Positions 2,144 through 20,038 of a DNA stretch of 64,000 nt are shown here, piece after piece (positions within the stretch are counted from its first letter, which is position 1; the number at the start of each line of letters is the position of its first letter). The notes beneath the pieces are model-generated. The model ran no database searches. It was not told where the DNA came from and saw only the letters and a list, made by a program, of their open reading frames with translations. The DNA comes from Verrucomicrobiota bacterium (lineage in GTDB: Bacteria > Verrucomicrobiota > Verrucomicrobiia > Limisphaerales > PALSA-1396): the NCBI GenBank assembly GCA_016200005.1, contig JACQFP010000013.1, positions 1 to 64,000 of the forward strand, in the 5' to 3' direction. A program made the position numbers and the translations under genes.

Positions 2144-2318
2144 GGCCCGGAGTTTTTAACCGCAGATGGGGCAACATGGACGCAGATGCGGAGGGAAAGG
2201 CAGGAGACGCGGTGACGAGGCTCTGATCAAGAACCGTTGAGAGTTAAGAGTTCAGAGTTGATAGTTGAAATGCTGAAAACTGAGATGCTGAAATGCTGAA
2301 ATTAGGAAAGTGGAAAGG
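2144..2318 (+). repeat. 175-bp dispersed repeat, copy A
   Basis: This 175-bp stretch recurs with the same length at 7613-7787 with very few differences. It holds an inverted copy of the 'aaccgcagatgg' repeat, the phrase ggtgacgaggctctgatc, and GCTGAAAT-type octamer repeats. No gene is visible in it. Confidence 0.85.
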
Positions 2319-2348
2319 AGAGATAAAAAAACTGAAACGATGAGGACG

Positions 2349-2752
2349 GTAGTCGGTGATCAGTAGTCAGTGGTCAGTAGCCGGTGGTCAGTAGCCGGGG
2401 GACGGATCTCCAAGCTCCGAGCGCCTATCTCCATTCTCCCATCTTCCATCTTCGATCTACCCCTCAACACCCAACATTCAACTCTCAACATTCAACTCTC
2501 AACATTCAACTCTCAACATTCAACTCTCAACATTCAACTCTCAACATTGAACGGGGCTGGTAGTCGGTGATCAGTAGTCAGTGGTCGGTAGCCGGTAGGC
2601 GGAACAGCCGACGAACTCTCAACATTCAACATTCAACATTCAGCAGGGAGCGGGGAGCAGAGAGCAGAGGAATCTCCAAACTCCAAGCTCCAAGCGGTGC
2701 TCTCCGTTCTCCGTTCTCCACTCTCCAATCTCCTGTCTCCAAACTGTCTTCG
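2349..2752. repeat. Phase-locked drifting heptanucleotide tract
   Basis: Cutting this stretch into consecutive 7-mers from 2349 gives about 57 units that stay in one register while the motif changes. Units read GTNGTCA/GTAGCCG at 2349-2397, NATCTCC/CATCTTC at 2405-2460, alternating CATTCAA and CTCTCAA at 2475-2545, and then GGTAGTC, ACATTCA, GCAGAGA and NTTCTCC types to about 2752. The sequence is non-coding and separates the broken gene fragments from the first toxin-antitoxin cassette. The remainder to 2848 shows no gene. Confidence 0.85.
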
Positions 2753-2848
2753 CCCGACCGTGTGCGCCGTTGGGTGGTGGTAGCGCCGGTGGCAGTTTTT
2801 CCTTCGACTACATTGACATCGCATTCACATTGGTGTTAACTCATTGTA

Positions 2849-3201
2849 ATGCGTGAGATTCACTTCTACCGCACAGCGGGTGGCGGGTGTCCGGTCGAAG
2901 CGTTTCTCGATTCGCTCGGGTCGAAGCAAGCCCGGAAGGTCGCCTGGGTATTGCAGGTCGTGCGGGAATTACCTCGTGTGCCACAGCAATACTTAAAAAG
3001 TTGGAGGGGACTGAGGATTTGTGGGAAGTGCGGGCCGAGTTCGGCGGCGATGCCTTCCGGTTGTTGGGCTTTTGGGATTCGGGCAGGCTGATCATCCTCA
3101 CCAACGGATTTGCCAAGAAGACCCAAAAGACGCCCGAGCGGGAAATTGCGTTGGCCGAGCAACGGCGCCGGGATTACTTGAGCCGAAAGAAAAAGCCATG
3201 A
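2849..3201 (+). pseudogene. HigB-like (Gp49/DUF891) toxin, frameshifted
   Basis: The first frame from ATG 2849 gives [20 protein letters not shown] and continues to VPQQYLK. The rest, [16 protein letters not shown] then [18 protein letters not shown] and [13 protein letters not shown], lies in the next frame and ends at TGA 3199-3201. Together they make a full-length RelE-superfamily HigB/Gp49-like mRNA interferase of about 117 residues. The break sits in a run of five A at about 2994-2998; one more A would restore a single frame, so this is a one-base deletion, a sequencing error or slippage. The stop overlaps the ATG of the antitoxin (ATGA), the usual arrangement of toxin-first HigBA modules. 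Confidence 0.8.
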
Positions 3202-3488
3202 AAGACGACATCGAGAAATACATTGAGAAGCGCAAACGCGCCGACAAGGTCTTTGCCCACGATTTTGACGCCGGTTACGAGGAGTTCAAGATTGGGGTGA
3301 TGCTCCGGCAAGTCCGCGAAGAGGCGGGGGTTTCCCAAGCAACGCTCGCGAAGATCACCCGCACCAAGAAATCCGCAATTTCCCGGCTGGAGAACCACGC
3401 GGAAGACGTCCGCTTGTCCACGGTGGCGCGCGTCGCGAGGGCACTCGGCAAGACTTTGCGCCTCGAATTGGTCGAGGCCAAACCTTGA
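3198..3488 (+). CDS. HigA-like Xre-family antitoxin
   Basis: A 96-residue helix-turn-helix protein. Residues about 38-90 form the Xre/Cro [22 protein letters not shown] then [20 protein letters not shown]. The charged N-terminal arm ([19 protein letters not shown]) fits HigA-type antitoxins that pair with Gp49-like toxins. It would neutralise the toxin and autorepress the operon through the HTH (family knowledge). The start overlaps the toxin stop by 4 nt. The reading frame is intact although its toxin partner is broken. Confidence 0.85.
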
Positions 3489-3521
3489 CTGCCGGAAAAA
3501 ACTTTCAAGACGGAAACACTG

Positions 3522-3644
3522 CCCGGTGAAGTAACCCGGTGAAGTAGCCCGGTGAAGTAGCCCGGTGAAGTAGCCCGGTGGAATAGGGAATAGATTCCAC
3601 GGGCCAATCCCCAGTGGAATACGAAACAGATTCCACGGGGCAAG
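3522..3644. repeat. 14-nt tandem units plus palindromic TTCCAC/GTGGAA repeat
   Basis: Four to five units of CCGGTGAAGTAGCC (14 nt, twice seven) are followed by two inverted pairs of the type cccagtggaata and tattccacgggg/gattccacgggg. Related blocks lie at 4411-4513, 6571-6708 and, shortened, 11980-12012. The remainder of 3489-3734 holds no gene. Confidence 0.8.
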
Positions 3645-3734
3645 GAAAGCAGAAAGGGGCAAAGCTGCTGGCGGGTTGAGCGTGCGCTGGTTTTCCGCTT
3701 TGCCCACACCGGCGAATTGTGAGACTGTATCGGC

Positions 3735-3974
3735 ATGAGCGTAACTTTGGCTGACGTACGAAAAAAGCCGGGCCACCTGGCCGGCAAAGCCCAATCCAGG
3801 GTTGAAACCCTCACCGTCAAGCAACGGTCCGCGACGGCGAAGTTGGAATCCGTCCAACGACATTCGGAGATTCTGACGGCGCAGTGGCGCACGCGGCGCA
3901 AGACCATCTTATTAAACCCGAAGGGACTTCCACGGCTGAGCGTGGCCAAGCTGATCCAAAGAGGGAGGAAATGA
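3735..3974 (+). CDS. Putative antitoxin of the adjacent VapC
   Basis: A 79-residue basic protein starting at ATG 3735. Its stop overlaps the start of the PIN-domain gene by 4 nt (ATGA), so position makes it the antitoxin. The C-terminal segment KGLPRLSVAKLIQRGRK resembles the toxin-wrapping tail of Phd/VapB-type antitoxins. I do not recognise the N-terminal DNA-binding fold with certainty. The frame is intact. Confidence 0.6.
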   Translation: MSVTLADVRKKPGHLAGKAQSRVETLTVKQRSATAKLESVQRHSEILTAQWRTRRKTILLNPKGLPRLSVAKLIQRGRK

Positions 3975-4381
3975 GCTTGTTTATTGACGCAAGCGCCGCG
4001 TTGGCGCTCCACTTCGAAGACGAATTCCGCCCCTTTGAACCATTGGAAACAAGGTTGGCCGCCGGAGAAGACGCCTTCACCGCGCCAAATTTCTTCCAGG
4101 AAGTGATGGAGGCGCTGCGCCGTGCCATGCGTGAGGGTCGCACCACCAAGGCGGATGCCAGCGCGTGGCTGACCGTGTTGGACAGTTATGAGATCATCCC
4201 GCTGGCTGTCAATCCAGTGGCGGGCTGCGCGACGTGGATTCTGGCGGAAAAGCTCAACGTATCCGCTTACGACGCCGGGTATGTGGCGGTGGCCTACGCG
4301 CGTGGGCTGCCGTTGTGGACTAAAGATGCGCCACTGATCAATAAGCTAAAGCGGGAGGGCATTGACTACTTGCCCAATTAG
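3971..4381 (+). CDS. VapC-like PIN-domain ribonuclease toxin
   Basis: A 136-residue PIN-domain protein. The expected acidic positions are present: D5 in LFIDASA, a central Glu in FFQEVMEAL, Asp in NVSAYDAGYVAVA, and Asp in LWTKDAPL. These bind Mg2+ in VapC endoribonucleases, which cut tRNA or rRNA (family knowledge). The length is typical for VapC. The start ATG at 3971 has gggagg just upstream and overlaps the antitoxin stop. Of the four recognisable toxins in the left region this is the only one with an uninterrupted frame. Confidence 0.85.
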   Translation: MSLFIDASAALALHFEDEFRPFEPLETRLAAGEDAFTAPNFFQEVMEALRRAMREGRTTKADASAWLTVLDSYEIIPLAVNPVAGCATWILAEKLNVSAYDAGYVAVAYARGLPLWTKDAPLINKLKREGIDYLPN

Positions 4382-4410
4382 AGCAGGGAAACGCAGAAAG
4401 AAAAAAGCTG

Positions 4411-4513
4411 TCCGGTGAAGTAGCCCGGTGAAGTAGCGGAATGACTTCACGGGCCGAGGCGGACTTCACGGGTCAATCCCCAGTGGAATACGGGATGGAT
4501 TCCACGGGGCAAG
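4411..4513. repeat. 14-nt / palindromic repeat block, second copy
   Basis: Two CCGGTGAAGTAGCC-type units, then acttcacggg segments that pair with them, then cccagtggaata with gattccacgggg. It is the same composite as at 3522-3644. Confidence 0.75.
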
Positions 4514-4530
4514 GGAAATGGGGAAAATGG

Positions 4531-4574
4531 AAAGCGCCGCTGAATCGGCGCACTCCAGACGCTGCGCGAGTGTT
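4531..4574 (+). repeat. 44-bp repeat 'gcgccgctgaatcggcgc'
   Basis: A 44-bp unit with an internal hairpin (gcgccg and cggcgc) that recurs almost unchanged at 6825-6868 and in inverted, diverged form at 10795-10839. Confidence 0.8.
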
Positions 4575-4677
4575 GTGGCGTGGGCTGTGATTTAGCATTT
4601 CGGATCTCCAATTTCAGGATTTCAGATTTTCTACTTTCAACATTTCATGTTTTTGTGTGCATCTGCGTTCATCGGCG

Positions 4678-4814
4678 TTCATCTGCGGTTAAAGATTTCC
4701 GTTTCCCGCTCCGGGTTTTCCGCGAGGTCGCGTAAAACGGCACGCGAGCCGCGCGCGCTCCCCATTCCAATTTCAGTGTTTCGGAGTCTCAACATCCAAC
4801 ATTCAACATCGAAC
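4678..4814 (+). repeat. About 135-bp dispersed repeat, copy 1
   Basis: It starts ttcatctgcggttaaag, continues through gcgtaaaacggcacgcgagc, and ends in heptad sequence. Near-identical copies lie at 7788-7922 and 8759-8862. No gene is visible between 4382 and 4893. Confidence 0.85.
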
Positions 4815-4893
4815 GAGGCGGAGGACGGAAATGCGTGAGCGGCGGTTCCGGCCAAAGGGTTGACTTTAGGGAAAGGGCGAATATTCTTTTGCA

Positions 4894-5187
4894 ATGAGTT
4901 CAACAGTGCGAGATCGCAAGCATCCCTTCCGACTGCCAAGCGAGGACGCCCGCGCCGTGGACGAACTGGTCGCTCAGACCAAGGTTTCGTTCAGCCGCAT
5001 CGTTTCGCTTTGCGTTCGCAAAGGCCTGCCGTGGGTGCGTGCGGATTTGTCCAGCAAGAGCGGCCGCGTCACGAACGTGGACCCGCTGCCCGAAAAGGTG
5101 CTCCGGCGTATTTACTCTCGCCCCGAGCGCGACGAAGGCGGTGTTGACCGGCTGGTGAAGGCCCAGGCCAAGGGAGTGCGCGATTGA
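4894..5187 (+). CDS. Antitoxin of a PemK/MazF-like pair
   Basis: A 97-residue protein whose TGA overlaps the TTG start of the toxin-like frame at 5184. The first half (KHPFRLPSEDARAVDELVAQ then FSRIVSLCVRKGLPWVRADL) suggests a ribbon-helix-helix-like DNA-binding domain. The C-terminal half is charged and probably disordered, as in MazE- or PemI-type antitoxins. The assignment rests mainly on the position before a MazF-like frame. The frame is intact. Confidence 0.6.
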   Translation: MSSTVRDRKHPFRLPSEDARAVDELVAQTKVSFSRIVSLCVRKGLPWVRADLSSKSGRVTNVDPLPEKVLRRIYSRPERDEGGVDRLVKAQAKGVRD

Positions 5188-5501
5188 ATGCCTGGGAAGT
5201 TTGGACCTGGGACGGTCATCCGTGCATCCTGCTCTCCAATCAGGAACGGTTGAACCGCAAACAGTAGTTTGTTGTGCTCAAAGGGCAGACACTCTATTCC
5301 GGCGATCCTGCGCCGACGCCGCTGGAAACGGTGTTGGACGTGGCGGATGGTTTAGACCGGCGCACGGTGTTTGTCTGCGACCTGCTCTACACGGCGCCCA
5401 AGGCGGCGATTTCGCAACAGCGCGGCGAGGTTCGGTCGCTGGAACGTCGGCGCGACATCTCGCGCAAAATCATTCAAGGTCTGGCGCTGGCCGGGCTCTA
5501 G
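5184..5501 (+). pseudogene. PemK/MazF-like toxin with an in-frame TAG
   Basis: From TTG 5184 the frame reads LNAWEVWTWDGHPCILLSNQ and ERLNRKQ, meets TAG at 5265-5267, and resumes without shift as FVVLKGQTLYSGDP, DVADGLDRRTVFVCDLLYTA and RRDISRKIIQGLALAGL. The complete product would be about 105 residues, the normal length of MazF/PemK-type endoribonucleases, with a W..D.HP.ILLSN-like first strand. The stop most likely replaces a sense codon (GAG to TAG is one change). TTG 5184 overlaps the antitoxin stop, which supports it as the original start. A restart at GTG 5274 would lack the first strands and is unlikely to be active. Confidence 0.75.
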
Positions 5502-5593
5502 GAATCACTGCGGGCGACGCGCGATCATACCCGGGGGCAACGGTTTGGGGAGTGGTTTGGAAAGCCAGGGATGGGAGGCAGGGAAAATCCGCA

Positions 5594-5790
5594 AAGCTGA
5601 AAGTAGAAATTGGGAAAGCAGAAAGCAAGGAGACTGCCTGACCACGGACAACAGACCACCACCGCCCTCCGAGCTCCAATCTCCAATCTTCCATCTTCGA
5701 TCTACCCCTCAACTCTCAACATCGAACGGGGCGGTGGTCAGTAGTCAGTGGGCGGTGGACGGTAGGCGGAGGGCGGGCTTCCGGCGCGGA
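5594..5790. repeat. Drifting heptanucleotide tract
   Basis: Seven-nucleotide register runs from AAAGCTG/AAAGTAG units through CGAGCTC, CAATCTC and ACTCTCA types to GGTGGTC and AGTAGTC types. The motif order (GATCTAC, then CCCTCAA, CTCTCAA and a GTGGTCA class) matches part of the tract at 2349-2752. Nothing coding is seen from 5502 to 5858. Confidence 0.8.
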
Positions 5791-5858
5791 GCAAACAGCG
5801 CGGAGCGGAACAACGTCTTTGGGCTTGAAAAAGCGGCCCATAAAACTAATCTGTCAGC

Positions 5859-6206
5859 ATGACACTTGAGTTATCTGATCTCGACACCATCAAGAACAAT
5901 GCGCTGAAGAAATTTGAAGAGCGCGTGTGCAGCGCCCGGGATAACCGCGCAGAAATCGAACGCGAGGCTTTCAGGTTGGAGTCGCAATTGGAGCAGCTTT
6001 ATTCCTTTACCGCGGTCATGGCGCGTCGGGAACCCGAGGTGGCCAGAACCGCCGAACTTTGGGAAAGCCTGGTAAAGACCTGCGACCTGTTCGCGGGAAA
6101 AGTATTTCAATTGTCGCAGCAACACTCGCTCGGCACCGCGGCCTACGACCATATTCTGGATATTCGCAGCGCGGCGGAAGAATTGCGGACGTTGCACCGC
6201 CCATGA
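5859..6206 (+). CDS. Uncharacterised protein, first gene of an overlapping pair
   Basis: A 115-residue, mostly helical, charged protein (SDLDTIKNNALKKFEERV, REAFRLESQLEQLYSF, VARTAELWESLVKTCDLFAG, DILDIRSAAEELRTLH). It has no signal peptide, membrane segment or motif that I recognise; the heptad-like spacing of hydrophobics suggests coiled helices. Its TGA overlaps the ATG of the next gene by 4 nt, as in the toxin-antitoxin cassettes on both sides. It may be one half of an unrecognised toxin-antitoxin or accessory pair; this is inference from context only. Confidence 0.6.
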   Translation: MTLELSDLDTIKNNALKKFEERVCSARDNRAEIEREAFRLESQLEQLYSFTAVMARREPEVARTAELWESLVKTCDLFAGKVFQLSQQHSLGTAAYDHILDIRSAAEELRTLHRP

Positions 6207-6415
6207 TCAGCCCGGCGGAAATCGCTGCCCTGGCTGAACTCTACGATCGTTACGCCAACGCTTTTGAGCGCACCTCTCCTGACCGACTACGGGCGCGCCG
6301 CCAGTTTTATGCGCGGCTCGAAATGCTCTACGAGCAAGAGGGCCGGAATGTGACCTACGATGCGTTTCGTTTTGAGATGGTTAAACTGTGCAAAGAGTAT
6401 CTCCGCAGAAATTAG
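6203..6415 (+). CDS. Uncharacterised small protein, second gene of an overlapping pair
   Basis: A 70-residue protein (MISPAEIAALAELYDRYANA, SPDRLRARRQFYARLEMLYE, FRFEMVKLCKEYLRRN) that is helical and lacks known motifs. It is translationally coupled to the preceding gene by an ATGA overlap. The pair sits between a broken MazF-like and a broken HicA-like cassette. I do not recognise the family. Confidence 0.6.
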   Translation: MISPAEIAALAELYDRYANAFERTSPDRLRARRQFYARLEMLYEQEGRNVTYDAFRFEMVKLCKEYLRRN

Positions 6416-6570
6416 CAGATTCGTTTCCGGCAGCTTTCGACTTTCCAAGCTCCCCATTTCTGAGTTCGGGCTTCGTTTTCTGCTTTCCGGATTTCAGCTT
6501 TCAGTATTTCAGATTGTTTACTTTCTACCCTCAACCCTCAACCCTTCAACATTGAACGAGGCGGAGGGCG

Positions 6571-6708
6571 CCCGGTGAAGTAGCCGGGTGAAGTAGCGAA
6601 AGCCTTCACGGGCCGATCCCCAGTGGAATAGGGAATAGATTCCACGGGTCAATCCCCAGTGGAATACGAAACAGATTCCACGGGGCAGGGGAGACTTCAC
6701 GGGCCAGG
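6571..6708. repeat. 14-nt / palindromic repeat block, third copy
   Basis: Two CCGGTGAAGTAGCC-type units, a cttcacgggcc complement, two cccagtggaata/gattccacggg pairs, and a closing acttcacgggcc. It is the longest copy of the composite. Confidence 0.75.
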
Positions 6709-6711
6709 GAA

Positions 6712-6770
6712 GTCAGTGGTCAGTGGTCGGTAGTCGGTGGTCGGTGGACGGTAGGCGGAGGACGGACTCT
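6712..6770. repeat. GTCAGTG/GTCGGTG heptad tract
   Basis: About eight consecutive heptads of the GTCAGTG, GTCGGTA, GACGGTA and GGCGGAG types. They are followed by 8-nt AGCTGAAA units up to about 6800. Confidence 0.75.
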
Positions 6771-6824
6771 GAAAAGCTGAAAAGCTGAAATTGAAAATTG
6801 GGAAAGCAGAAATGCGGACAATGA

Positions 6825-6868
6825 AAAGCGCCGCTGAATCGGCGCACTCCAGACGCTGCGCGAGTGTT
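6825..6868 (+). repeat. 44-bp repeat, second copy
   Basis: Nearly identical to 4531-4574. It is followed at 6873-6909 by a copy of the ttcatcggcgtccatctgcgg repeat. Nothing coding is seen from 6416 to 7104. Confidence 0.8.
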
Positions 6869-7104
6869 TAGCCACGATCTGCGTTCATCGGCGTCCATCT
6901 GCGGTTAAAGAATCGGGAGCCGTTTTCAGCGTTTCAGTGTTTCAGCATGTCAGTGTTTGAGAAAATGTGAGCTCCGGCTTGGGCGCCTTACGGGCAGGAA
7001 GCGCGATTCTGAGGATGACCCACGCGGAGATCCGTCAGAGATTTGATCAAAACCCCGAATCCGGCAGCTCTTGACCTGCCGCTGGTTTGACGTAAACTGC
7101 TTTC

Positions 7105-7356
7105 ATGCTTGCACACTTCCTGGACGTTGCGATGGAGCTGGCCGCGTACGAAATCATCGAGGACGACGCCTCTTACTGGGGTGAAATACCCGGGCTGCAA
7201 GGTGTCTGGGCGCGGCATCAAACCTTGGCTGGCTGCCAGCGTGAACTGCGGGAAGCGTTGAGCGATTGGATCGCTCTTCGGCTCCGGCTGGGAATGGAAA
7301 TACCCGAAATTGCCCGGATCAATCTAAACGGGATCGGGGCAGCCACCCATGCCTAA
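7105..7356 (+). CDS. HicB-like antitoxin
   Basis: An 83-residue protein with the HicB partial-RNase-H-like pattern: YEIIEDDASYWGEIPGLQGV then LAGCQRELREALSDWIALRL. HicB antitoxins bind the HicA dsRNA-binding toxin. The start could be ATG 7105 or the internal ATG 7132 (MELAAYEII). It overlaps the downstream HicA-like frame by 8 nt. Its frame is intact while the toxin is interrupted. Confidence 0.75.
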   Translation: MLAHFLDVAMELAAYEIIEDDASYWGEIPGLQGVWARHQTLAGCQRELREALSDWIALRLRLGMEIPEIARINLNGIGAATHA

Positions 7357-7570
7357 ACTTGCTCCGGTTTCCCGTCGCAAATTCATCCAGCGGTTGCGTG
7401 AACTGGGCTTTGAAGGCCCCTAAGCCGGGGGAAAACACCCGCAGATGAGGCGGGGAAACCTGACGTTGATCGTTCCCAACGAACACGAAGGCGACCTCGG
7501 GCCGGGCTTTCTAAGCCGGCTGCTCAAACAGGCGGGAATCTCACGTGAGGAATGGCTGGGTCAGGATTAA
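7349..7570 (+). pseudogene. HicA-like toxin with an in-frame TAA
   Basis: From ATG 7349 the frame reads MPKLAPVSRRKFIQRLRELG and FEGP, hits TAA at 7421-7423, and continues in the same frame as AGGKHPQMRRGNLTLIVPNE, then SRLLKQAGISREEWLGQD to TAA 7568-7570. The downstream half contains the HicA GGKH motif with the catalytic-type His. In the family a Tyr often fills the stop position (GPYAGGKH), so TAC or TAT to TAA is a likely nonsense mutation. Full length would be 73 residues, normal for HicA. Confidence 0.8.
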
Positions 7571-7612
7571 GAACGCGTTCACGGCCAATCTTCGGATTAG
7601 ATTTCAAAAGGC

Positions 7613-7787
7613 GGCCCGGAGTTTTTAACCGCAGATGGGGGAACATGGACGCAGATGCGGAGGGAAAAGCAGGAGACGAGGTGACGAGGCTCTGATCAAG
7701 AACCGTTGAGAGTTAAGAGTTCAGAGTTGATAGTTGAAATGCTGAAAACTGAGATGCTGAAATGCTGAAATTAGGAAAGTGGAAAGG
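7613..7787 (+). repeat. 175-bp dispersed repeat, copy B
   Basis: The same 175-bp unit as 2144-2318, with the same end points. It is joined directly to another dispersed repeat at 7788. Confidence 0.85.
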
Positions 7788-7922
7788 TTCATCTGCGGTT
7801 AAAGATTTCCGTTTCCCGCTCGGGGTTTTCCGCGAGGTCGCGTAAAACGGCACGCGAGCCGCGCGCGCTCCCCGTTCCAATTTCAGTGTTTCGGAGTCTC
7901 AACATCCAACATTCAGCATTCA
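7788..7922 (+). repeat. About 135-bp dispersed repeat, copy 2
   Basis: Nearly identical to 4678-4814. After it, 7898-7990 is CTCTCAA-type heptad sequence, and 7995-8020 carries gagcctcatcacctcgtctc, a phrase that recurs at 10910-11005. No gene is visible from 7571 to 8115. Confidence 0.85.
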
Positions 7923-8115
7923 ACTCTCAATCCGGATAGCCGAGGTCGGGGCCAACACTCAACTCTCAACCATCAACTCTCAACTGTTTTGATTAGAGCC
8001 TCATCACCTCGTCTCTTACGATTTCTGTTTTCAGTATTTCTGCTCTCTATTTTCTGCTATCTTGGCGTGAGTAAACGCATTGCCATTCCGCCGCAAGCAG
8101 TCTAACGTTCAACTT

Positions 8116-8505
8116 ATGACAGCATTGGAAGCTCAATGGAGTCCCGCAAAGCATTTGATTCTGGGCGATGACCCGCAACTGCGGGTATATGCGGAGATTT
8201 CCGTATGGTACAAGAAAATCGAATTGTTCCGCAAAGGAGAGGACGAACGCATGTTTCTTCAGGATCCGACTCCGGAAGATCTGGCAGTCCACAAGAGTTT
8301 GCTGCAACGCTTGATTGCCGATGGGGAGCATTTGCTATCGCTCGTCCAACAAATCGGTCTGCCCGAAAACGTTGAAGGAATCACGCCGGCATCCGTGGCC
8401 GCCACGGTTGAACTGCTGAGTGCGGATTACCGTGGCTGGCATGAGCGAATGCCGGCAGAAAAGCGGGAACAAATCTTGAGAGAAGTTTTTCCCGATGTCG
8501 CGTAA
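8116..8505 (+). CDS. Uncharacterised protein, first gene of a second overlapping pair
   Basis: A 129-residue soluble protein from ATG 8116 (MTALEAQWSPAKHLILGDDP). An upstream ATG at 8080 is in frame but lies within repeat-like sequence. The sequence is acidic and helical (EDLAVHKSLLQRLIADGEHLL, MPAEKREQILREVFPDVA). There are no recognised catalytic motifs. It overlaps the next gene by 11 nt, so the two are probably co-translated. It lies at the end of the toxin-antitoxin array; its function is unknown. Confidence 0.55.
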   Translation: MTALEAQWSPAKHLILGDDPQLRVYAEISVWYKKIELFRKGEDERMFLQDPTPEDLAVHKSLLQRLIADGEHLLSLVQQIGLPENVEGITPASVAATVELLSADYRGWHERMPAEKREQILREVFPDVA

Positions 8506-8725
8506 CCCGCAGATCGAGGCGATTCACGAAGCTCGCTACGACTTGCAAACGTGCGCGGAGAAAGACAAACCGGCGGCGCGCAAGAAACTTTACGATCTGC
8601 TCGCTCAGGCCGCCGCCAGAGCCAATCCGCCAGTTCGGGCTGAAGACGTCCTCGACGTTCTATACGACGACTACAAGGAATTCCGTCGAATGAAGCTGAA
8701 ACAGCAGTGGCCAAAACTGAAGTAA
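8495..8725 (+). CDS. Uncharacterised small protein, second gene of the pair
   Basis: A 76-residue, lysine- and arginine-rich protein (MSRNPQIEAIHEARYDLQTC, KPAARKKLYDLLAQAAARAN, EDVLDVLYDDYKEFRRMKLK). It overlaps the upstream gene by 11 nt. I do not recognise the family; position suggests a two-gene functional unit. Confidence 0.55.
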   Translation: MSRNPQIEAIHEARYDLQTCAEKDKPAARKKLYDLLAQAAARANPPVRAEDVLDVLYDDYKEFRRMKLKQQWPKLK

Positions 8726-8758
8726 TGCCGGTCGTTTCTGTATCCGCGCTCATCAGCA

Positions 8759-8862
8759 TTCATCTGCGGTTAAAGACTTCCGTTTCCCGCTCCGGGTTTT
8801 CCGCGAGGTCGCGTAAAACGGCACGCGAGCCGCGTACGCTCCCCGGTCCGATTTCAGTATTT
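8759..8862 (+). repeat. About 105-bp dispersed repeat, copy 3
   Basis: The third copy of the element at 4678 and 7788, ending earlier. The carbamoyltransferase start lies 38 bp downstream. Confidence 0.85.
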
Positions 8863-8899
8863 CTGCTCTCTACTTTCTGCCTTCTACACTCTCCTCGTT

Positions 8900-10660
8900 A
8901 TGAGTTTGATCCTCGGCCTTAACGCCTTTCACCCGGATGCCTCCGCGTGCGCGTTGCGCGATGGCAGGCTGATTGCCGCGGTGGCGGAGGAGCGGCTCGG
9001 CGCGCGCCGCAAACATCAGGCGGGATTTCCCGGGCGCGCCTTGCAAGCCGTGCTCCAGATGGCGGGCGCGACGGTGCGCGACATCGATTACCTGGCGATC
9101 GGCAATGACAGCAACGCCAACCTGACGGCCAAGGCGGCGCATGTGTTGCGTTCACCGCTCAAGTCCGCGCGCGGGGTGATGACGCATTTTCAGCGACGCG
9201 CCCGGATGCAAAGTGTCCAGCAACTGGTCGCCGCGGCGTGCGGGGTGCCGGAAACGGATTGCCGGTTTCAGGTGGCGCGCGTGGAGCATCATCTCGCGCA
9301 CCTCGCCAGTTCGTATTACGCGAGCGACTTCGATGTGGCTGCGGGATTCAGTTATGATGCGGCGGGGGATTTCACCTCGGCGATGTTGGCGCGGTGCGCG
9401 GGGAATCGGATCGAGATTCTCGACCGCGTGTTCATGCCGGATTCGCTGGGTTATTTTTACACGGCGCTCTGCCAGTTCATCGGCTTTGACCGGTTCGGTG
9501 AGGAATACAAGGTCATGGGCCTGGCGGCTTACGGTGAACCAAAATACCAGGAGTTGATGCGGGAGTTGTTGCGGCTGGATGGCAGCGGACAGTTCCGGCT
9601 CAACGGGGATTATTTTGTGCCGCTGGGCCGGAACCTCGAGGAATGCACGGATGAGAAGGGGGAGATTCTGCTGCCGCCGCTTTACTCGGCGGCCTTGGTG
9701 AAGAAACTCGGCGCGCCCCGCAACCGGAGCGCGGAGATCACGCAGCGGGAGAAAGACATCGCGGCCTCCTGTCAGGCGCACTTCGAGGAGGCGGTGCTGG
9801 CGTGCTTGCGGCATTTGCATCGGCGCGTGCCCACGGAAAATCTCGTCACCGCCGGCGGCTGCGCGCTGAACGGTGTGTGCAACTCGCGGATTTTGCGGGA
9901 CACGCCTTTCCAACGAAGCTACATCCAATGCGCCGCATCGGATGATGGCACGGGTCTGGGCGCGGCGTTGTACGTGTGGAATGCAATTCTGAAACAGCCG
10001 CGCGCGGGCATGATTGATCACGCGTATTGGGGGCCGGAACATTCGGAGGCGGCGATGGCGGAGGCATTGCGCCAGGGCGGGCTGCGGTTTGAGCGATTTG
10101 AGCGCGGGGCTTTGCTGGAGCGGGCGGCGGCGCATCTGGACGCCGGGCACGTGACGGGTTGGTATCAAGGGCGCAGTGAATGGGGGCCGCGGGCGTTGGG
10201 CAACCGTTCCATTCTTGCGCATCCGGGCTGGCCGGGCATGAAGGATTTGATCAATCAAAAGATCAAGCGGCGGGAAGCCTTCCGTCCGTTTGCGCCGACG
10301 GTGCTGGCGGAAAAAGTGGGGGAGTATTTTGAGCAGGCGGTGGAAAGCCCGTTCATGATGCACGTGGTCAAAATCCGGCCGGAAAAGCGCACGGCCCTCG
10401 CGGCGGTTTGCCACCAGGATGCGACTGGCCGGCTGCAGACGGTGAAGCCGTCGCAGAACGCGCTGTATCATGAGTTGATCCAGACGTTTGCGGGGAAGAG
10501 CGGCATTCACGCCGTGCTCAACACGAGTTTCAACGAGAACGAACCGGTGGTGGACACGCCGCAGCAGGCGGTGGATTGTTTTATGCGGACGGACATGGAC
10601 GTGCTGTGTCTGGGGCCGTTTGTGACCGCGAAGCCGGGGAAGGGAAATTTGAAAAGTTGA
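8900..10660 (+). CDS. NodU/CmcH-family carbamoyltransferase
   Basis: A 586-residue protein spanning both domains of O-carbamoyltransferases of the NodU/CmcH/TobZ family, which use carbamoyl phosphate and ATP to carbamoylate a sugar or natural product. The N-terminal Kae1-like domain starts LGLNAFHPDASACAL and carries the metal-binding HHLAH motif at residues 130-134. GEEYKVMGLAAYGEP and GGCALNGVCNSR follow. The C-terminal YrdC-like domain holds GWYQGRSEWGPRALGNRSIL, FRPFAPTVL and NTSFNENEPVVDTP. Length is normal. In exosortase-bearing bacteria such genes sit in extracellular polysaccharide clusters, which fits the exosortase and glycosyltransferase downstream. The actual acceptor is unknown. 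Confidence 0.92.
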   Translation: MSLILGLNAFHPDASACALRDGRLIAAVAEERLGARRKHQAGFPGRALQAVLQMAGATVRDIDYLAIGNDSNANLTAKAAHVLRSPLKSARGVMTHFQRRARMQSVQQLVAAACGVPETDCRFQVARVEHHLAHLASSYYASDFDVAAGFSYDAAGDFTSAMLARCAGNRIEILDRVFMPDSLGYFYTALCQFIGFDRFGEEYKVMGLAAYGEPKYQELMRELLRLDGSGQFRLNGDYFVPLGRNLEECTDEKGEILLPPLYSAALVKKLGAPRNRSAEITQREKDIAASCQAHFEEAVLACLRHLHRRVPTENLVTAGGCALNGVCNSRILRDTPFQRSYIQCAASDDGTGLGAALYVWNAILKQPRAGMIDHAYWGPEHSEAAMAEALRQGGLRFERFERGALLERAAAHLDAGHVTGWYQGRSEWGPRALGNRSILAHPGWPGMKDLINQKIKRREAFRPFAPTVLAEKVGEYFEQAVESPFMMHVVKIRPEKRTALAAVCHQDATGRLQTVKPSQNALYHELIQTFAGKSGIHAVLNTSFNENEPVVDTPQQAVDCFMRTDMDVLCLGPFVTAKPGKGNLKS

Positions 10661-10952
10661 AAGTAGAAAGTAGAAAGCAGAAAACAGTTTCGGAATTTTT
10701 AACCGCAGATGGAGGGAACATGGACGCAGAGGCAGACCAAAAGCTGAAAGGCTGAAATCGGAGATCCGAAATGCTAAATCACAGCGCACGGCTAAACACT
10801 CGCGCAGCGTTTGGAGTGCGTCCGATTTATCGGCGCTTTTGATTTTGTGTTTCAACTTTTCAGGAACTCTCAACCTTCAACGCTCAATTTTTAACTTTCA
10901 ACTTTTATAGAGTGAGCCTCGTTAGCTCGTCTCCTACGATTTCAGCATTTCA
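10661..10952. repeat. Composite repeat spacer
   Basis: It holds GTAGAAA/GCAGAAA heptads (10653-10685), an inverted aaccgcagatgg repeat (10697-10735), GCTGAAA units, an inverted 44-bp repeat (10795-10839), CTCAACN heptads (10866-10905) and gagcctcgttagctcgtctc (10913-10933). No gene is seen. Confidence 0.75.
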
Positions 10953-12305
10953 GTGTTTCAGCGTTTGAATAGAGCCTCATCACCTCGCCTCCTACGGTTT
11001 CCGGACACCGCGTCGTGGCTCCTCATGCTCGCGGCGCTCTGGGGGCCGGTCATTTATCTGCTGGGGGCGCAATGGACGTTTTTCGGGCAATACAATTACG
11101 GGTGGGCGGTGCCAGTTTTGTGCATTTATCTGGCGTGGGAACGCTGGCAGACCGGGAAGCGCAGAGCGCAGAGCGCGGAGCCGGGAGCGGTGGAGCCGGG
11201 AAACATCGAACGTTCAACATTCAACATTCAACATTCAACCTCGAACGTCCAAAAGGTCGGCGAGCGGAAGGCGGATCTCAACTCTCAACTCTCAACTCTC
11301 AACTTTGGGAGCCCAACCGTCTGGCTTCTGTTTGTCGGCGGCGTGCTGCTGTGGGCGACACGAATTTTACAGGAGGCGAATCCCGTTTGGCGCGCCGCGA
11401 GTTACGGACTGGCCATGGAAGCGGTCGCGGTCACTCTGCTCCTGCTCTATCTCACGGGTGGTGCCAGCCGGGTGAAACAGTTTGCGTTTCCGATTGTGTT
11501 TTTTCTCGTGGCGGTGCCCTGGCCCACGCCGGTGGAAAGCGCCGTCATCCAGAACTTGACCCGTTTGAACTCGGCGGCCGTGGTGGAGTTGCTGAATGGG
11601 TTTGGCGTTCCGGCCCTGGCGCGCGGAAACGTCATCGAAGTCAGCACGGGCATGGTCGGCATTGACGAGGCGTGCAGCGGCATACGTTCGGTGCAGGCGA
11701 CATTGATGGTGTCGCTGTTCTTCGGCGAGTTTTACCGGCTGCGTGTTGCGCCGCGGCTGATGATGGTGGTCGGGGGACTGGTTTCGGCAATGTTGTTCAA
11801 CCTGGCGCGGATGTTCCTGCTGACGTGGGTGGCGTCCCGCGACGGGACTCAAGCTATCGAGAAGTGGCATGATCCCGCGGGTGTTACCATTCTCGTGGCG
11901 TGTTTTCTGTTTCTCTGGGGTTTGGGAGTGTGGCTGGGGAAGCGGAGGGCAGGAGGCAGAGGACGGAGGACGGAAGACGGCCCGGTGAAGTTGGCCGAAG
12001 ACTTCACGGGCCAGGAAAGTCAGAAGTCAGTGGTCAGTGGTCAGTGGTCAGTGGTCAGTGGTCAGTGGTCGGAAGTCAGACCTCCAAACTCCCAGTTCCC
12101 AGCTCCCAGCTCCAACTTCCAAGCTCCGATCTTCCATCTTCAATTTCTCCTTCAACGCCTTCAACTCTCAACTCTCAACCTTCAACCTCGAACAAGACGG
12201 AAGGCGGAAGTCAGCAGCCGGAAGCCAGCGGTCCGACCTCTGAGCTTCGATCCTCGATTGCCGATCTCCGGCATCTGGCTGGCGCTGTCGCGCTGTGGGT
12301 GGTGA
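10953..12305 (+). CDS. Exosortase (membrane transpeptidase), expanded by repeats
   Basis: Polytopic exosortase that would cleave and transfer PEP-CTERM-type substrates at the inner membrane. Counting from GTG 10953, the predicted catalytic residues are C241 in GIDEACSGIRS, R286 in FNLARMFLL and H306 in EKWHDPAG. QYNYGWAVP and FPIVFFLVAVPWP mark the usual membrane helices. GTG 10953 lies inside a repeat, so the true start is uncertain; ATG 11025 is an alternative. Residues about 70-120 are heptad repeat sequence inserted in frame in a loop. After about residue 330 the frame is repeat-derived (SVVSGQWSVVSGQW) up to the stop. The normal C-terminal EpsI-like domain lies in another frame at 12270-12931. 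Confidence 0.85.
   Translation: MFQRLNRASSPRLLRFPDTASWLLMLAALWGPVIYLLGAQWTFFGQYNYGWAVPVLCIYLAWERWQTGKRRAQSAEPGAVEPGNIERSTFNIQHSTSNVQKVGERKADLNSQLSTLNFGSPTVWLLFVGGVLLWATRILQEANPVWRAASYGLAMEAVAVTLLLLYLTGGASRVKQFAFPIVFFLVAVPWPTPVESAVIQNLTRLNSAAVVELLNGFGVPALARGNVIEVSTGMVGIDEACSGIRSVQATLMVSLFFGEFYRLRVAPRLMMVVGGLVSAMLFNLARMFLLTWVASRDGTQAIEKWHDPAGVTILVACFLFLWGLGVWLGKRRAGGRGRRTEDGPVKLAEDFTGQESQKSVVSGQWSVVSGQWSEVRPPNSQFPAPSSNFQAPIFHLQFLLQRLQLSTLNLQPRTRRKAEVSSRKPAVRPLSFDPRLPISGIWLALSRCGW
11160..11312. repeat. Heptad tract inserted inside the exosortase frame
   Basis: GCGCAGA/GCGCGGA units, then AACATTC units, then CAACTCT units, mostly in 7-nt register. They encode the foreign-looking segment with STFNIQHST and LNSQLSTLN between two membrane helices. 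The exosortase frame stays open across it. Confidence 0.85.
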
Positions 12306-12931
12306 TGGTTGAGATTTCGACGGAAGTCTGGTTTCGCAGTCACGAGGTTCGCGGTGTCAAAGCCGTGGCGTGGTCCGTTCGCTGGCCGGAACGCAATCCG
12401 ACGTTTGAAGCGAAGACGTTTCCGGCAACGGTGAGCAACATGCTCCAGTACGACGAAGGACATGCGGGCGCGTGGGTGGAGGCGGATCGAAGTGTGTGGC
12501 AGGCGTTCTATCTGCGCTGGTTGCCGGGGCGTTCGTTTTACGATCGAATGAGGGTGGCTTTGGCCAAGAGCCACAATCCGGAGATTTGTCTGCAGGCCAG
12601 CGGGCTGGTCATGCGGCGGGAGCTGGCGCCGGTGGTCGTGCCAGTGCAACCGGGTTTCAACATTGCATTCCGAAGATACCTCTTCGAAGCCAACGGGAAA
12701 CCGTTGCACGTCTTTTTTTCCGGCACGGAGGACGTGGAAGTGGCGGGCGTTTCCGGTTTCCTGAGGATGACTCATCGTGAACGGTTGCAGGCCGCGCTGG
12801 CGGGCAGCCGAAATTTTGGCCAACGGAATTTCGAAGTGGCGATCAGCGGATTCGATGATCCCGGGCGGGCCCTTCGCCTCTTTGAAGAGAAGTTGCCTGG
12901 ACTGGTTCAGGTCGGAGTTGCGACGAAGTAG
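11900..12931 (+). CDS. Exosortase-associated EpsI-like C-terminal domain, separated from the exosortase
   Basis: The conserved part is about 12270-12931: one membrane helix (LAGAVALWVVMVEI), then VWFRSHEVRG, WSVRWPERNP, YDEGHAGAWVEADRSVWQAF and later GTEDVEVAGVSGFLR. This matches the periplasmic EpsI-type domain often fused behind exosortases in this phylum (from memory). Here it is in frame 2 while the exosortase is in frame 3, because the heptad tract between them does not keep the frame. The open frame reaches back to GTG 11900, but everything before about 12265 is shifted exosortase or repeat. The true start is unclear, so the domain may be translated alone or not at all. Confidence 0.6.
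   Translation: MFSVSLGFGSVAGEAEGRRQRTEDGRRPGEVGRRLHGPGKSEVSGQWSVVSGQWSVVGSQTSKLPVPSSQLQLPSSDLPSSISPSTPSTLNSQPSTSNKTEGGSQQPEASGPTSELRSSIADLRHLAGAVALWVVMVEISTEVWFRSHEVRGVKAVAWSVRWPERNPTFEAKTFPATVSNMLQYDEGHAGAWVEADRSVWQAFYLRWLPGRSFYDRMRVALAKSHNPEICLQASGLVMRRELAPVVVPVQPGFNIAFRRYLFEANGKPLHVFFSGTEDVEVAGVSGFLRMTHRERLQAALAGSRNFGQRNFEVAISGFDDPGRALRLFEEKLPGLVQVGVATK
11945..12275. repeat. Long drifting heptad tract splitting the exosortase from its C-terminal domain
   Basis: It begins after the last exosortase helix, includes a cccggtgaag/cttcacgggcc pair at 11980-12012, then GTCAGTG units (12026-12070). It continues in the same register through CTCCCAG, CTTCCAT, TCTCAAC and AAGGCGG classes to about 12265. 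The EpsI-like sequence resumes in a different frame. Confidence 0.85.
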
Positions 12932-12954
12932 GACGGAGGTCGGGCGGGGTGCAG

Positions 12955-13031
12955 AATATTCAACCCTCAACCTCCAATCTCGAACTTCGAACATCGGGCT
13001 CTCAACTCTCAACCTTCAACCCTCAACTTTC
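12955..13031. repeat. Heptad tract before the glycosyltransferase
   Basis: Eleven heptads of the ATTCAAC, CCTCAAC, TTCGAAC and TCTCAAC types run up to 3 nt before the TTG start of the next gene, so this repeat forms its leader. Confidence 0.8.
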
Positions 13032-13033
13032 CT

Positions 13034-14395
13034 TTGAAGATCCTCCTCCTCAATCAGACGTTTCATCCGGACGTCGTCTCGACGGCGCAGCACCTGAGCG
13101 ATCTGGCCGTGGAACTGGCCCGGCGCGGGCACGAGGTCACGGTGCTGTGCGGGCGGCGGGCTTATGATGATCCCAGAATGATCTTCCCGCGCAAGGAGAC
13201 CTGGAAAGGCGTGCAGATTCATCGGGTGTTTTCCACGAGCTTTGGCAAGCAGGCCAAGTGGCGGCGGGCGGTGGATTTTGCCAGCTTCATCGCGTCGTGT
13301 TGCGCCCGGCTCCTTCTGCTGCGGCGCCAGGACAGGGTGGTGGCGCTGACGTCGCCGCCATTGATTTCGTTCATCGGGGCGTGGATGGCCCGGTGGTGGC
13401 GCGCGCGGTTCTGTTATTGGGTGATGGATTTTAATCCGGACGAAGCGATCGCCGCGGGTTGGCTGCGCGCGGATTCGCTGGCGGGGAGAATCCTTGACCG
13501 GATGTCTTGCTTCAGTCTGCGACGGGCAGACCGGATCATTGCGCTCGACCGGTTCATGCGCGACCGCATCGCGGCCAAAGGGATTGCGCCGGACAAGATT
13601 ATTGTGATCCCGCCGTGGTCGCACGACGACGAGGTGGGGTTCGACGCTGCGGGCCGGGAGCGGTTTCGCAAAGCGCACGGGCTGGCCGGAAAGTTCGTCG
13701 TCATGTATTCTGGCAACCACAGTCCGTGTCATCCGTTGGACACGTTGCTGGAGGCGGCGCAACAGCTCGGTTGTGAGGAACGATTCGTCTTCGTGTTTGT
13801 TGGTGGCGGGAGCGAATTCTTGAAGATCCAGGCGTTATCTGAAATGCAGAAAGCAGAAAGCAGAAAGCAGAAACCGGAAAGGGCGGAAAGCGGAGGGGAG
13901 AAATCTGAAAGTGGAAATCTGAAAACAGAGATCACTTCGAGCTTGTCTCGTCCAATTCCAACTCTCAACTCTCAACTCTCAACTTTTGGAACTGAGTCAA
14001 TCAACCCTCAACTCTCAACCATCCGGTGCCTTCCCTACCAACCGCTCGGTGAATTGGCGGGTTCGCTGTCCGCGGCAGATTTGCACGTCGTGGTAATGGG
14101 CGATCCGTTCGTGGGGCTGGTTCATCCGTGCAAGATTTACAACGTGTTGGCGGTCGGCTCGCCCGTGCTTTACATCGGGCCGGAGGCGAGTCATCTCGCG
14201 GAGATTCTGGCGGCGTTGAACTCGCGCGTCTGCGCCCGGGTGGGTCACGGCGAAGTGGATGAATGCGTGGCGCAGATCCGGCGGATTGCCCGGGAAAACC
14301 AGCGTGGTGAATCCGGACCTTACGAAGCGGTGAGCGCGCAATTTTCGCGGGCCCTCTTATTGCCGGAACTGGTGCGCAAGCTGGAACCCGGGTAG
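13034..14395 (+). CDS. GT4-family glycosyltransferase with an in-frame repeat insertion
   Basis: A GT-B fold glycosyltransferase probably acting in extracellular polysaccharide assembly. Residues 1-120 hold the N-terminal Rossmann half (KILLLNQTFHPDVVSTAQHL with a Gly-rich turn, GHEVTVLCGR). The second half starts near VVMYSGNHSPCHPLDTLLEA and contains FVFVGGGSEF, FVGLVHPCKIYNVLAVGSPV and LYIGPEASHLAEI, typical for sugar-nucleotide binding in GT4. TTG 13034 is taken as the start because it precedes KILLLNQ directly. Residues about 269-331 (SRKQKPERAES, TLNSQLSTFG) are repeat-encoded and absent from ordinary members. They interrupt the strand after GGGSEFLKIQ, before CLPYQPLGELA. Frame is preserved, so the protein may still fold. 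Confidence 0.85.
   Translation: MKILLLNQTFHPDVVSTAQHLSDLAVELARRGHEVTVLCGRRAYDDPRMIFPRKETWKGVQIHRVFSTSFGKQAKWRRAVDFASFIASCCARLLLLRRQDRVVALTSPPLISFIGAWMARWWRARFCYWVMDFNPDEAIAAGWLRADSLAGRILDRMSCFSLRRADRIIALDRFMRDRIAAKGIAPDKIIVIPPWSHDDEVGFDAAGRERFRKAHGLAGKFVVMYSGNHSPCHPLDTLLEAAQQLGCEERFVFVFVGGGSEFLKIQALSEMQKAESRKQKPERAESGGEKSESGNLKTEITSSLSRPIPTLNSQLSTFGTESINPQLSTIRCLPYQPLGELAGSLSAADLHVVVMGDPFVGLVHPCKIYNVLAVGSPVLYIGPEASHLAEILAALNSRVCARVGHGEVDECVAQIRRIARENQRGESGPYEAVSAQFSRALLLPELVRKLEPG
13838..14028. repeat. Heptad tract inside the glycosyltransferase gene
   Basis: AGAAAGC units, then AGAAATC/TGAAAGT units, then CTCAACT units, all near a 7-nt period and with no stop in the glycosyltransferase frame. 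Confidence 0.85.
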
Positions 14396-16360: not shown

Positions 16361-17845
16361 TCAGAACCAGCGATTCTTGAACCAAACGGAGACGGTTCCA
16401 TCCGGCTCAAGTGGCGACAGAACTGCCTTCTTGAATCCTCGCTCGCAGTGGACAAGCACGCACTCGTGATCGCGGAGATTGCGGAGTTTGTGCGGTTTGA
16501 TTTTGTGTTCCTCGGTTTCGGAGTAGTTCACGTTGTGCTTTCCGGCGCTGTGGCCCCATGAGCGTTTCACCACGCGCTTCTTGCCGAGGAAATCGGCGGC
16601 TTGAACCGCATCGGCTTCGTCGGCGGCGCGGAAGATGAGACGGTTGCGAAGGTTCAAGGTGAGCACTTTGGCTTTGTCATTGCCCAATGGCGGCACAAGC
16701 GAGGTTGTGCTTTGCGCAGCGGCGACAACGGTTGCGCCTGCTTCGCGGATCACGTCCACGCAATTGTAGTCGCTCGTCCCGTCTTCGTTCGCGGTCATGA
16801 ATCGCTGCGCTTCGTCGGCCCAGAGGATGAGCAGATTGTCATCAGCACGTTCGGCCTTGGCCTTGTCGAAGCGACGAAGGGCGTGGCTGTAGTAAAGCAG
16901 CTTGAGGAACGTGTTCACGTAGCGCCGCTCGGTCTGAAACTTCTGCGGCATCGTCGTGAGGATGATTTTGCCCTGGTCGATAGTGGCGAAATCGAAGGTG
17001 CTTTCTTCGGTGCAGAAAACCTCGGCGACTTCGGGGGTCAAAAAGTATTGAAGGTAATTGCCGATCGTTTCGCGGACGCCGCCATGCTGTTCCTCGGGCT
17101 GGTTGAGAAAGCGGTTCGCGAAATGGGCATACACAGCGACGCGGCGTGGTGTTTCGAGAAGGGATTCAAGATTTTCCATTTCTTCCTCAAGACTTTCGCG
17201 GTTGGATAACAACTCAAAGGCGGCGAGCAACGTCACCGGGCGGCTCAACTCGAAGAGCATTTCGAGCGCGTGGGCGATGTGGGTTTGCGCCTGGCTCTTG
17301 AAAAAGCCTTTGTCTCCGCCTTGGCCGAGACTCGTGGCGGTGTCCACGATGAATTTGGCGTAGGTCGTGAAAGGGATGCTGCGGTCGCCGGTCAAGTTGT
17401 AACGATTTGGCGGCGTCCATTCCGCGTCGGTGTCATTCGAGCGGATTTGCAAGTGAATCAGGTCGTGCTCGCGCCCGTAGTGTCGAGCCATCGCTGAAAG
17501 GGTTTCCCAATACACGCCCTTTTCATCAATGCAAAGTCCACCCCATGTCGGCTCGTTCTGAAAGACCTGGTGGGCAAGCTGATTGATCCCGGAACTGGTC
17601 TTGCCAGAGCCGGTGTCGCCGGTGATGAGCCAGCCGCGACAAAATTGAGTCCGCTTCCATCTCAAACCACCGAGTCGGGCAACGCAGTTTTTGCGGCTAC
17701 GCGGAACGAACAAGAGCCAGGCTGCGATGAGCGCCAGCAGAATGCCGCCCGCGACCAAGCAGTATTGCGGATTCCTCAATGCGAGAATGAGGTCTGGCGG
17801 CGGCATTATTGGACCGAACGGAATGACATCGAGTTTCACGGCCAA
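16361..17845 (-). CDS. VirD4/TraD-type conjugative coupling ATPase
   Basis: A 494-residue protein with one N-terminal membrane helix (about residues 30-47), Walker A GDTGSGKT (76-83) and a Walker B-like ILWADEAQRF. QKFQTERRYVNTFLKLLYYS and ATVVAAAQSTTSLVPPLG are typical of TraD/TraG/VirD4 coupling proteins that recruit the relaxase-DNA complex to a secretion channel. It is somewhat shorter than classical VirD4. It overlaps the next upstream gene slightly and belongs to a minus-strand run with ParA and small genes. Confidence 0.8.
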   Translation of the reverse strand: MAVKLDVIPFGPIMPPPDLILALRNPQYCLVAGGILLALIAAWLLFVPRSRKNCVARLGGLRWKRTQFCRGWLITGDTGSGKTSSGINQLAHQVFQNEPTWGGLCIDEKGVYWETLSAMARHYGREHDLIHLQIRSNDTDAEWTPPNRYNLTGDRSIPFTTYAKFIVDTATSLGQGGDKGFFKSQAQTHIAHALEMLFELSRPVTLLAAFELLSNRESLEEEMENLESLLETPRRVAVYAHFANRFLNQPEEQHGGVRETIGNYLQYFLTPEVAEVFCTEESTFDFATIDQGKIILTTMPQKFQTERRYVNTFLKLLYYSHALRRFDKAKAERADDNLLILWADEAQRFMTANEDGTSDYNCVDVIREAGATVVAAAQSTTSLVPPLGNDKAKVLTLNLRNRLIFRAADEADAVQAADFLGKKRVVKRSWGHSAGKHNVNYSETEEHKIKPHKLRNLRDHECVLVHCERGFKKAVLSPLEPDGTVSVWFKNRWF

Positions 17846-18201
17846 GCCCTCCCGATGAGATAACCAGCGAGCAATCCTGCGATGGTGGCGAAGATGGCGG
17901 CGGCGCGAGTGATTCTTGCAGCACGGTGGGCCGGTGGTTGGTCTCGCAACATTTCGAGTAAGGCCGCTGCCTGTCCCTGAAATGTCCGTGCGGCTTCAAC
18001 GAGCTTCGTGATGTCTGCACGGAACTGCTCAAAAGATGGAATTTCACGGCGACGGAGTTCATCCCAATGTCGCTGGTGGATTCGGAACAACTCGACGAGG
18101 AGCATCACCGCGTCGTCTTCTCGCAGCCGATGTTTATCGCGCCACTCGGCGACGGCCTCGTCGAACTCTTCGTCGAAGTTGGGTTGTTCGGTGTTCGGCA
18201 T
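17836..18201 (-). CDS. Small tail-anchored membrane protein of the mobilization block
   Basis: A 121-residue protein from ATG 18201 (MPNTEQPNFDEEFDEAVAEW). An upstream ATG at 18270 is in frame but would overlap the ParA gene by 64 nt. It is charged and helical, with a C-terminal hydrophobic stretch (AAAIFATIAGLLAGYLIGRAW). It overlaps the coupling ATPase by 10 nt. Function is unknown; it could help anchor or regulate the coupling protein. Confidence 0.6.
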   Translation of the reverse strand: MPNTEQPNFDEEFDEAVAEWRDKHRLREDDAVMLLVELFRIHQRHWDELRRREIPSFEQFRADITKLVEAARTFQGQAAALLEMLRDQPPAHRAARITRAAAIFATIAGLLAGYLIGRAWP

Positions 18202-18206
18202 GGGAA

Positions 18207-19327: not shown

Positions 19328-19469
19328 AGGGTGGAATGATTCGGATGCGAACCGGGAAACTGATGAGCGGGAAAATGGACACGACGAAGCGGCGGCTCGG
19401 AGACTGTTCTGCCAGTCGAGGTTCACGGCCAATGTTGGTCAGCGGCGAGATTACGGTCGTGGACGGTGC

Positions 19470-19620: not shown

Positions 19621-19781
19621 ATAAATTGCGTCTGCGATCTGTTTTTGGCCTGCTCGCGTTCGCGGAATGGCCGCGTTTGTGGTCGTGAGCGATTCATATC
19701 GCGTGGCTGTTCGCCGTATTCACCGCGACTGCCTCGCGGACCTGGAAACCTTCGGCACGAAGGGGTAACGCGTGCCTTGTA

Positions 19782-20036: not shown

Positions 20037-20038
20037 GG

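Follow-up and report, generated by a model that had tools for sequence, protein, structure and literature searches.

Diverging heptanucleotide tandem repeats between genes, within genes and in hairpin loops of a Verrucomicrobiota genome

Known heptanucleotide repeats and the tracts of the window

Heptameric SSRs are over-represented in many bacteria, and a polymerase-footprint idea has been offered in this connection by a 2007 study, as cited in PMC4692102. The GGGGA(C/T)T and GGGAATC SSRs of Nostoc and Xanthomonas and the heptanucleotide repeats of cyanobacteria (STRRs) are made of tandem 7-nt units with degenerate positions, are mostly intergenic, sometimes form inverted pairs and vary in length between close relatives; the mechanism behind their step of seven is not known (PMC4692102). 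A further described case is the TAACTGA repeat of marine Beggiatoaceae, some Cyanobacteria and Bacteroidetes, a single word dispersed in many copies as heptamer direct repeats, patchy across distant lineages and placed mostly just upstream of start codons (PMC4679880).

Here we describe heptamer tracts in a stretch of 64,000 nucleotides from a Verrucomicrobiota bacterium (contig JACQFP010000013.1), which we refer to as the window. They fall among the known heptanucleotide repeats of bacteria, as a form that employs many words: tandem 7-nt units beyond chance, with degenerate positions, which are mostly intergenic and sometimes paired in inverted orientation. The likeness to the cyanobacterial repeats drawn in the original prediction is apt. 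Length differences were compared here between paralogous copies, as against close relatives in the published cases. Unlike STRRs and heptameric SSRs (PMC4692102), the present tracts use many words per genome and combine blocks of different words within one tract, and some of them lie in frame within conserved genes or in palindrome loops; G-quadruplex-forming G runs, as in the Nostoc and Xanthomonas SSRs, are not general among them. STRRs in the strict sense belong to filamentous cyanobacteria, whereas the host here lies outside that group and one word class appears in many phyla among the matches listed. The tracts share with TAACTGA (PMC4679880) the form of dispersed, multi-copy heptamer direct repeats with a patchy distribution across distant lineages, but here there are many words, and sites were sorted only as intergenic, genic or palindrome-loop. 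Literature searches on such repeats in Verrucomicrobia found no paper.

The explanation that we favour, with moderate confidence, is that these are diverging heptanucleotide tandem repeats of the STRR or heptameric-SSR type, forming an interspersed population throughout the genome which changes by length steps of 7-nt units and by point mutation, and whose new sites are seeded by ectopic copying that is favoured at hairpins.

Period, register and kinship of tracts in the window

Six stretches had been predicted to be periodic. Their self-match at lag 7 was 0.635 (2349-2752), 0.579 (5594-5790), 0.637 (11160-11312), 0.674 (12026-12265), 0.671 (12955-13031) and 0.549 (13838-14028), with a background of ~0.25-0.32 to which lags 5, 6, 8, 9 and 10 also belong (at most 0.33). 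For each stretch we generated two control sets of 1000 sequences, mononucleotide shuffles and order-2 Markov sequences, and the observed lag-7 value exceeded the maximum of all of them in every case. Period seven is thus real at all six stretches (0.55-0.67, beyond all shuffles), and shuffles of the same composition never equalled it, which was the control proposed with the original prediction. A scoring scan of the window found 25 lag-7 tracts, which together cover 1873 bp. Of these, 24 lie before 14 kb, and some are at positions other than those first predicted (Table 1); order-3 simulations of the window gave 0-2 such tracts.

Table 1. Heptamer tracts and tract-bearing genes, in window positions
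Positions	Strand	Feature	Remarks
2236-2285		Lag-7 tract, GTTGAGA class, passing into 8-nt TGAAATGC units	Repeated identically at 7705-7754
2345-2604		Heptamer blocks GTAGTCA / CTCCAAG / CATCTTC / CATTCAA-CTCTCAA / GTAGTCG	Paralogous to 5638-5785 and 12017-12190
2614-2740		Heptamer blocks AACTCTC / AACATTC / AGCAGAG / CTCC	
5638-5785		Heptamer tract	Junctions TCTTCGATCTACCCCTCAAC and GAACGGGGC in common with 2345-2604
6434-6557		Weaker heptamer tract, CCTCAAC units at end	
6712-6766		GTCAGTG/GTCGGTG heptamer tract	Homologous to 11997-12075, including flanking ACTTCACGGGCC element
7900-7987		Two tracts, CAACATT and CAACTCT	
10953-12305	+	Exosortase gene (PF09721) with in-frame tracts	
11158-11306	+	Tract within exosortase ORF, peptide ...STFNIQHSTSNVQ...LNSQLSTLN	Relatives lack it or have other sequence there
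12017-12279	+	Tract at junction of exosortase and C-terminal domain: GTCAGTG, CTCCAAG, CATCTTC and CAACTCT blocks	
12923-13031	+	Tract between domain ORF 12299-12931 and glycosyltransferase start	
13034-14395	+	Glycosyltransferase gene	In-frame tract insertion of ~50 codons
13843-13986	+	AAAGCAG and CAACTCT tracts within glycosyltransferase	

The repeat-rich first 14 kb also holds near-identical duplicated blocks (2143-2318 and 7612-7787, 98.3%; 4677-4809 and 7787-7919, 97.7%), and a second repeat family of GCCCGGTGAAGTA units and GGAATAGATTCCACGGG palindromes lies at 3521-3645, 4412-4516 and 6570-6692. Between repeats are small toxin-antitoxin-like genes (2860-4381 and 7105-7570) with matches to HTH and PIN domains, among which RelE- and HicBA-like genes were recognized by eye. 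Positions 1174-1968 correspond to a second, truncated exosortase gene. Further downstream, a MobF-type relaxase, a probable coupling protein and a ParA-like gene occupy 16361-24215, and the neighbourhood of the relaxase suggests an integrated conjugative element; a perfect 21-bp tandem duplication (TGAAATTATCGACTCTCAAAT) is found at 56881-56922.

The original prediction held that a single register is kept for about 57 units while the motif drifts. Phase counts uphold this within blocks, in each of which the phase is constant, and contradict it across blocks, where slips of 1-2 nt occur at the junctions. In 2349-2752 the phase moves from 3 to 4 for TCAAC and from 4 to 5 for GTCAGT; same-class blocks move from 3 to 4 in both 11150-11312 and 13838-14028, by a single base in 6434-6560 and by two bases (3 to 5) in 12017-12280. 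A strict register over 57 units was rejected because of these moves between blocks of the same class. CTCC stays in one phase over ~330 nt of 2349-2752; a common register across unrelated words is a matter of definition. Over 2345-14028, five of the six returns of a class came with a forward phase shift of exactly 1 nt, possibly by chance.

The similar order of classes that had been remarked on in different tracts is real and is accounted for by homology, several of the tracts being related to each other as divergent copies. Aligned copies are 71.6% (2351-2496 with 12025-12186), 91.8% (2429-2477 with 5674-5722), 81.4% (2534-2603 with 5709-5770) and 81.3% (6692-6766 with 11999-12073) identical, and the similarity of one pair continues into a flanking element which is not heptameric. 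Gaps inside the aligned copies, which are paralogues within one genome rather than a pair of strains of one species, measure 7, 70, 8 (7+1), 14, 2 and 7 nt, and are thus mostly multiples of seven, as anticipated; the gap of 70 nt corresponds to ten units of the CAACTCT/CATTCAA block of 2345-2604 that are missing from 5638-5785. Indels of 1-2 nt are present too, at class junctions. This indicates that whole units may account for most changes of tract length and that ordinary sequence divergence probably underlies the drift; the earlier statement that the period is conserved and the motif is not is borne out.

Gaps in multiples of seven are also what would be left by replication slippage alone, in which each tract arises locally and lengthens in slips of 7 nt, without sequence passing from one site to another, and the short palindrome loop at locus L281 contains a seed, TTTCGGATTTC, able to slip by seven. 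We regard slippage alone as decidedly unlikely: the same words occur at many unrelated sites, several tracts have ordered junctions and flanking elements in common, and 7-nt steps would shift the frame in conserved ORFs.

Distribution among genomes and within conserved genes

Tract counts for the genome of the window (G000) come from 757 kb of its 6.54 Mb, in which we found 80 tracts of period 7 as compared with 16 at lag 8, six at lag 10 and four at lag 11; coding DNA inflates such counts at periods that are multiples of three. The 80 tracts comprise 44 canonical words, well beyond one or a few words per genome, and the most frequent are AACTCTC (also written CAACTCT; 13), ACGCATC (also written CATCACG; 7) and AAATCCG (7). 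The recurrence of words makes independent origins from local sequence unlikely. The dinucleotide TC/GA is in excess, being present in 0.88 of the words observed and in 0.67 of all those that are possible. By gene calls from a simple hexamer script, 48 tracts lie outside called genes, in 14% of the DNA, and 32 lie inside. Apart from the avoidance of stop codons, there was no firm rule for the orientation of tracts relative to genes: the AAATCCG tracts seen inside genes of G000 are on the coding strand, and the GCACTCC/GGAATGC tracts in uvrA of relatives run both ways.

The window tract at 2345-2740 has 43 matches in its own genome, itself included, and the CAACNYT word family occurs in 19 of 39 genomes, again with its own genome included. 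Three consecutive AAATCCG units were present, often many times, in 13 of 141 genomes of the class, and the reversed control in none; three GTGGTCA units were present in six of the 141. A pattern scan over several phyla, which was selected for one word class and speaks to breadth rather than frequency, returned CAACNYT-type tracts in Bacteroidota, Planctomycetota, cyanobacteria and others among the matches listed.

Tracts inside genes encode peptides such as LSTLNPQLS, NPKSEIRNPKSE and RITHHASR, and lie in frame in several conserved genes besides two that are UvrA-like; the gene names, in G000, are our reading of the translations. The roughly 50 tract codons of the window's glycosyltransferase are missing from five relatives, and relative G011 carries a tract of its own at the same site; sequence related to the GCCCGGTGAAGTA/GGAATAGATTCCACGGG family was also seen within the G011 insertion. 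In the exosortase, one tract occupies a loop and another the junction with the C-terminal domain; the two parts form a single ORF in six relatives and two overlapping ORFs in the window.

At uvrA loci from 30 genomes of the order there were 47 tracts of period 7, and four, two and two of periods 8, 10 and 11. The words include CAACTCT, CATCACG and AAATCCG in G000, GCACTCC in G023, CCGGATN in G033 and several each in G018 and G010, such that the same UvrA loops are filled by different heptamers in different genomes while certain words are common to distant genomes. Some tract-bearing loops are hardly or not at all longer than those of tract-free genomes (for example, 0-2 residues at columns 430-442, the median being 0), and loop sequence may therefore have been replaced rather than inserted; alternatively, these patches could be old insertions that were later trimmed. 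Such loops also bear on whether the words are functional sites under selection, for instance binding sites, terminators or dialects like those of uptake sequences. The genome-specific words, the inverted pairs and the strong intergenic enrichment would suit such a role, but unrelated words and peptides in coding loops of uvrA fit neutral filtering better, and uptake sites are single rather than tandem; we consider selection for function very improbable as the explanation.

Hairpins, candidate machinery and the origin of new tracts

Tracts often have an inverted partner within 150 bp. This was the case for 26 of 101 tracts in relatives (one in the reversed control), 12 of 36 in uvrA loci (none in the control) and 52 of 193 in loci of many phyla (three in the control); in G000 the excess is weak (9 of 77, against three). 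At locus L197 (G011:C111:1-20000) we observed many tracts of a 9-nt unit, CACGGATGA, often with inverted partners nearby, and so seven is not the only period used in this way.

A palindromic element, consisting of GTAGCAGCCGACGTNAG..GGCTC, a loop and the inverse, has 65 arm matches and 12 exact inverted pairs in the genome, and 22 of the 37 copies examined lie inside called ORFs. Lag-7 tracts occupy the loop in 10 of 36 copies, and tracts of any other period from 4 to 12 in none. Loops without a tract are mostly 22-25 nt long and those with a tract 38-49 nt, usually ~21 nt more, a difference which may in part reflect copying of one long-loop subfamily. Loop words vary (AAATCCG, CAACCCT and GGAGTGC-like), from which it follows that the tract is not a constant component of the palindrome. 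Close variants of the element, or the element itself, were found in G001, G018 and G037 and on a Limisphaerales contig, which has a palindrome variant and a 61%-identical protein in common with the genome of the window. Taken with the genes and elements of the window, this makes an origin in the Verrucomicrobiota likely, if by indirect evidence. At the palindrome site in uvrA the arms are GTAGCAG/CTGCTAC in G001 (L227) and GTAGGAG/CTCCTAC in G000 (L226), with pairing kept, hinting at possible concerted evolution of the element. A search of the window and the element loci against Rfam returned no known RNA family.

Rickettsia palindromic elements (RPEs) are short palindromes that lie in frame in protein-coding genes. 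By its description the GTAGCAGCCGACGT element is like them, being a palindrome which inserts in frame in ORFs; the heptamer tracts, unlike RPEs, are non-palindromic and occur also without the GTAGCAGCCGACGT element, and the lineage is a different one. The abundance of arms, of exact pairs and of copies in ORFs, together with the heptamers in palindrome loops, would agree with the tracts being loop or arm sequence of non-autonomous elements (palindromes like MITEs or RPEs) that a transposase mobilizes. We think this unlikely, as most tracts lie outside the palindrome (among 12 AAATCCG loci, two have a variant and most others have none); matches to Y1 transposases occur in 32 of 39 genomes regardless of tracts, and hence do not discriminate.

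That a special copying process, for example a reverse transcriptase, lies behind the tracts was part of the original prediction. No candidate enzyme emerged among RVT_1, Ku and Y1 transposase. The presence of RVT_1 showed no association with tract-rich genomes (Fisher P = 0.46-0.51), although several genomes are incomplete, which makes absences soft; many tracts occur in G003 and G018, neither of which has an RVT_1 match. Ku was found in seven of 39 genomes and was likewise not associated with tracts (P = 0.41-0.65 across the RVT_1 and Ku tests). A reverse transcriptase as the source of tracts was rejected for want of correlation with RVT_1, and end-joining through Ku was rejected because Ku is both rare and uncorrelated. 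More broadly, a reverse transcriptase or other template-carrying polymerase dedicated to heptamer DNA, its genome-specific templates giving genome-specific words, would account for an exact period over many unrelated words, for the words being genome-specific and for varied words at one site of one element; with RVT_1 failing to track the tracts, we hold it to be quite improbable. A drifting periodic tract does not by itself call for a special enzyme, since duplication of 7 nt, point mutation and local re-expansion would give one. Also unlikely, in our estimate, is a dedicated process directed by hairpins that would write patches of about three heptamers (21 nt) from a genome-specific vocabulary into single-stranded loops, and thereby give related genomes heptamer dialects of their own, both at shared protein loops and in the loops of one palindromic element.

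We therefore return to diverging tandem repeats with ectopic seeding. Length differences by units, divergence of units, recurrence of words and sites in frame within genes and in hairpin loops are observed directly. Length changes in units of seven would keep the period while point mutations alter the unit, and local re-expansion of mutated units would produce drift. New sites would be seeded by a ready-made patch copied from an existing tract, through ectopic gene conversion or template switching; we infer patch copying because growth within a gene by one 7-nt slip after another would disrupt the frame every time. Hairpins may favour the process by exposing single strands, and selection would then keep intergenic copies along with frame-neutral, stop-free copies in protein loops. 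This explanation leaves aside why the step is exactly seven, with which the polymerase-footprint idea would be compatible.

Three features were not part of the original prediction: tracts that lie in frame in conserved genes, heptamer words that are genome-specific, and an association with hairpins. With its many related genomes, the lineage allows period, word, site and hairpin context to be compared, and such comparisons can be used to ask why bacteria favour a seven-base step. Conserved genes are useful in this respect, as the steps that are possible are recorded in their reading frame. Should patch copying at hairpins be correct, selfish-like sequence would have a way into conserved proteins.
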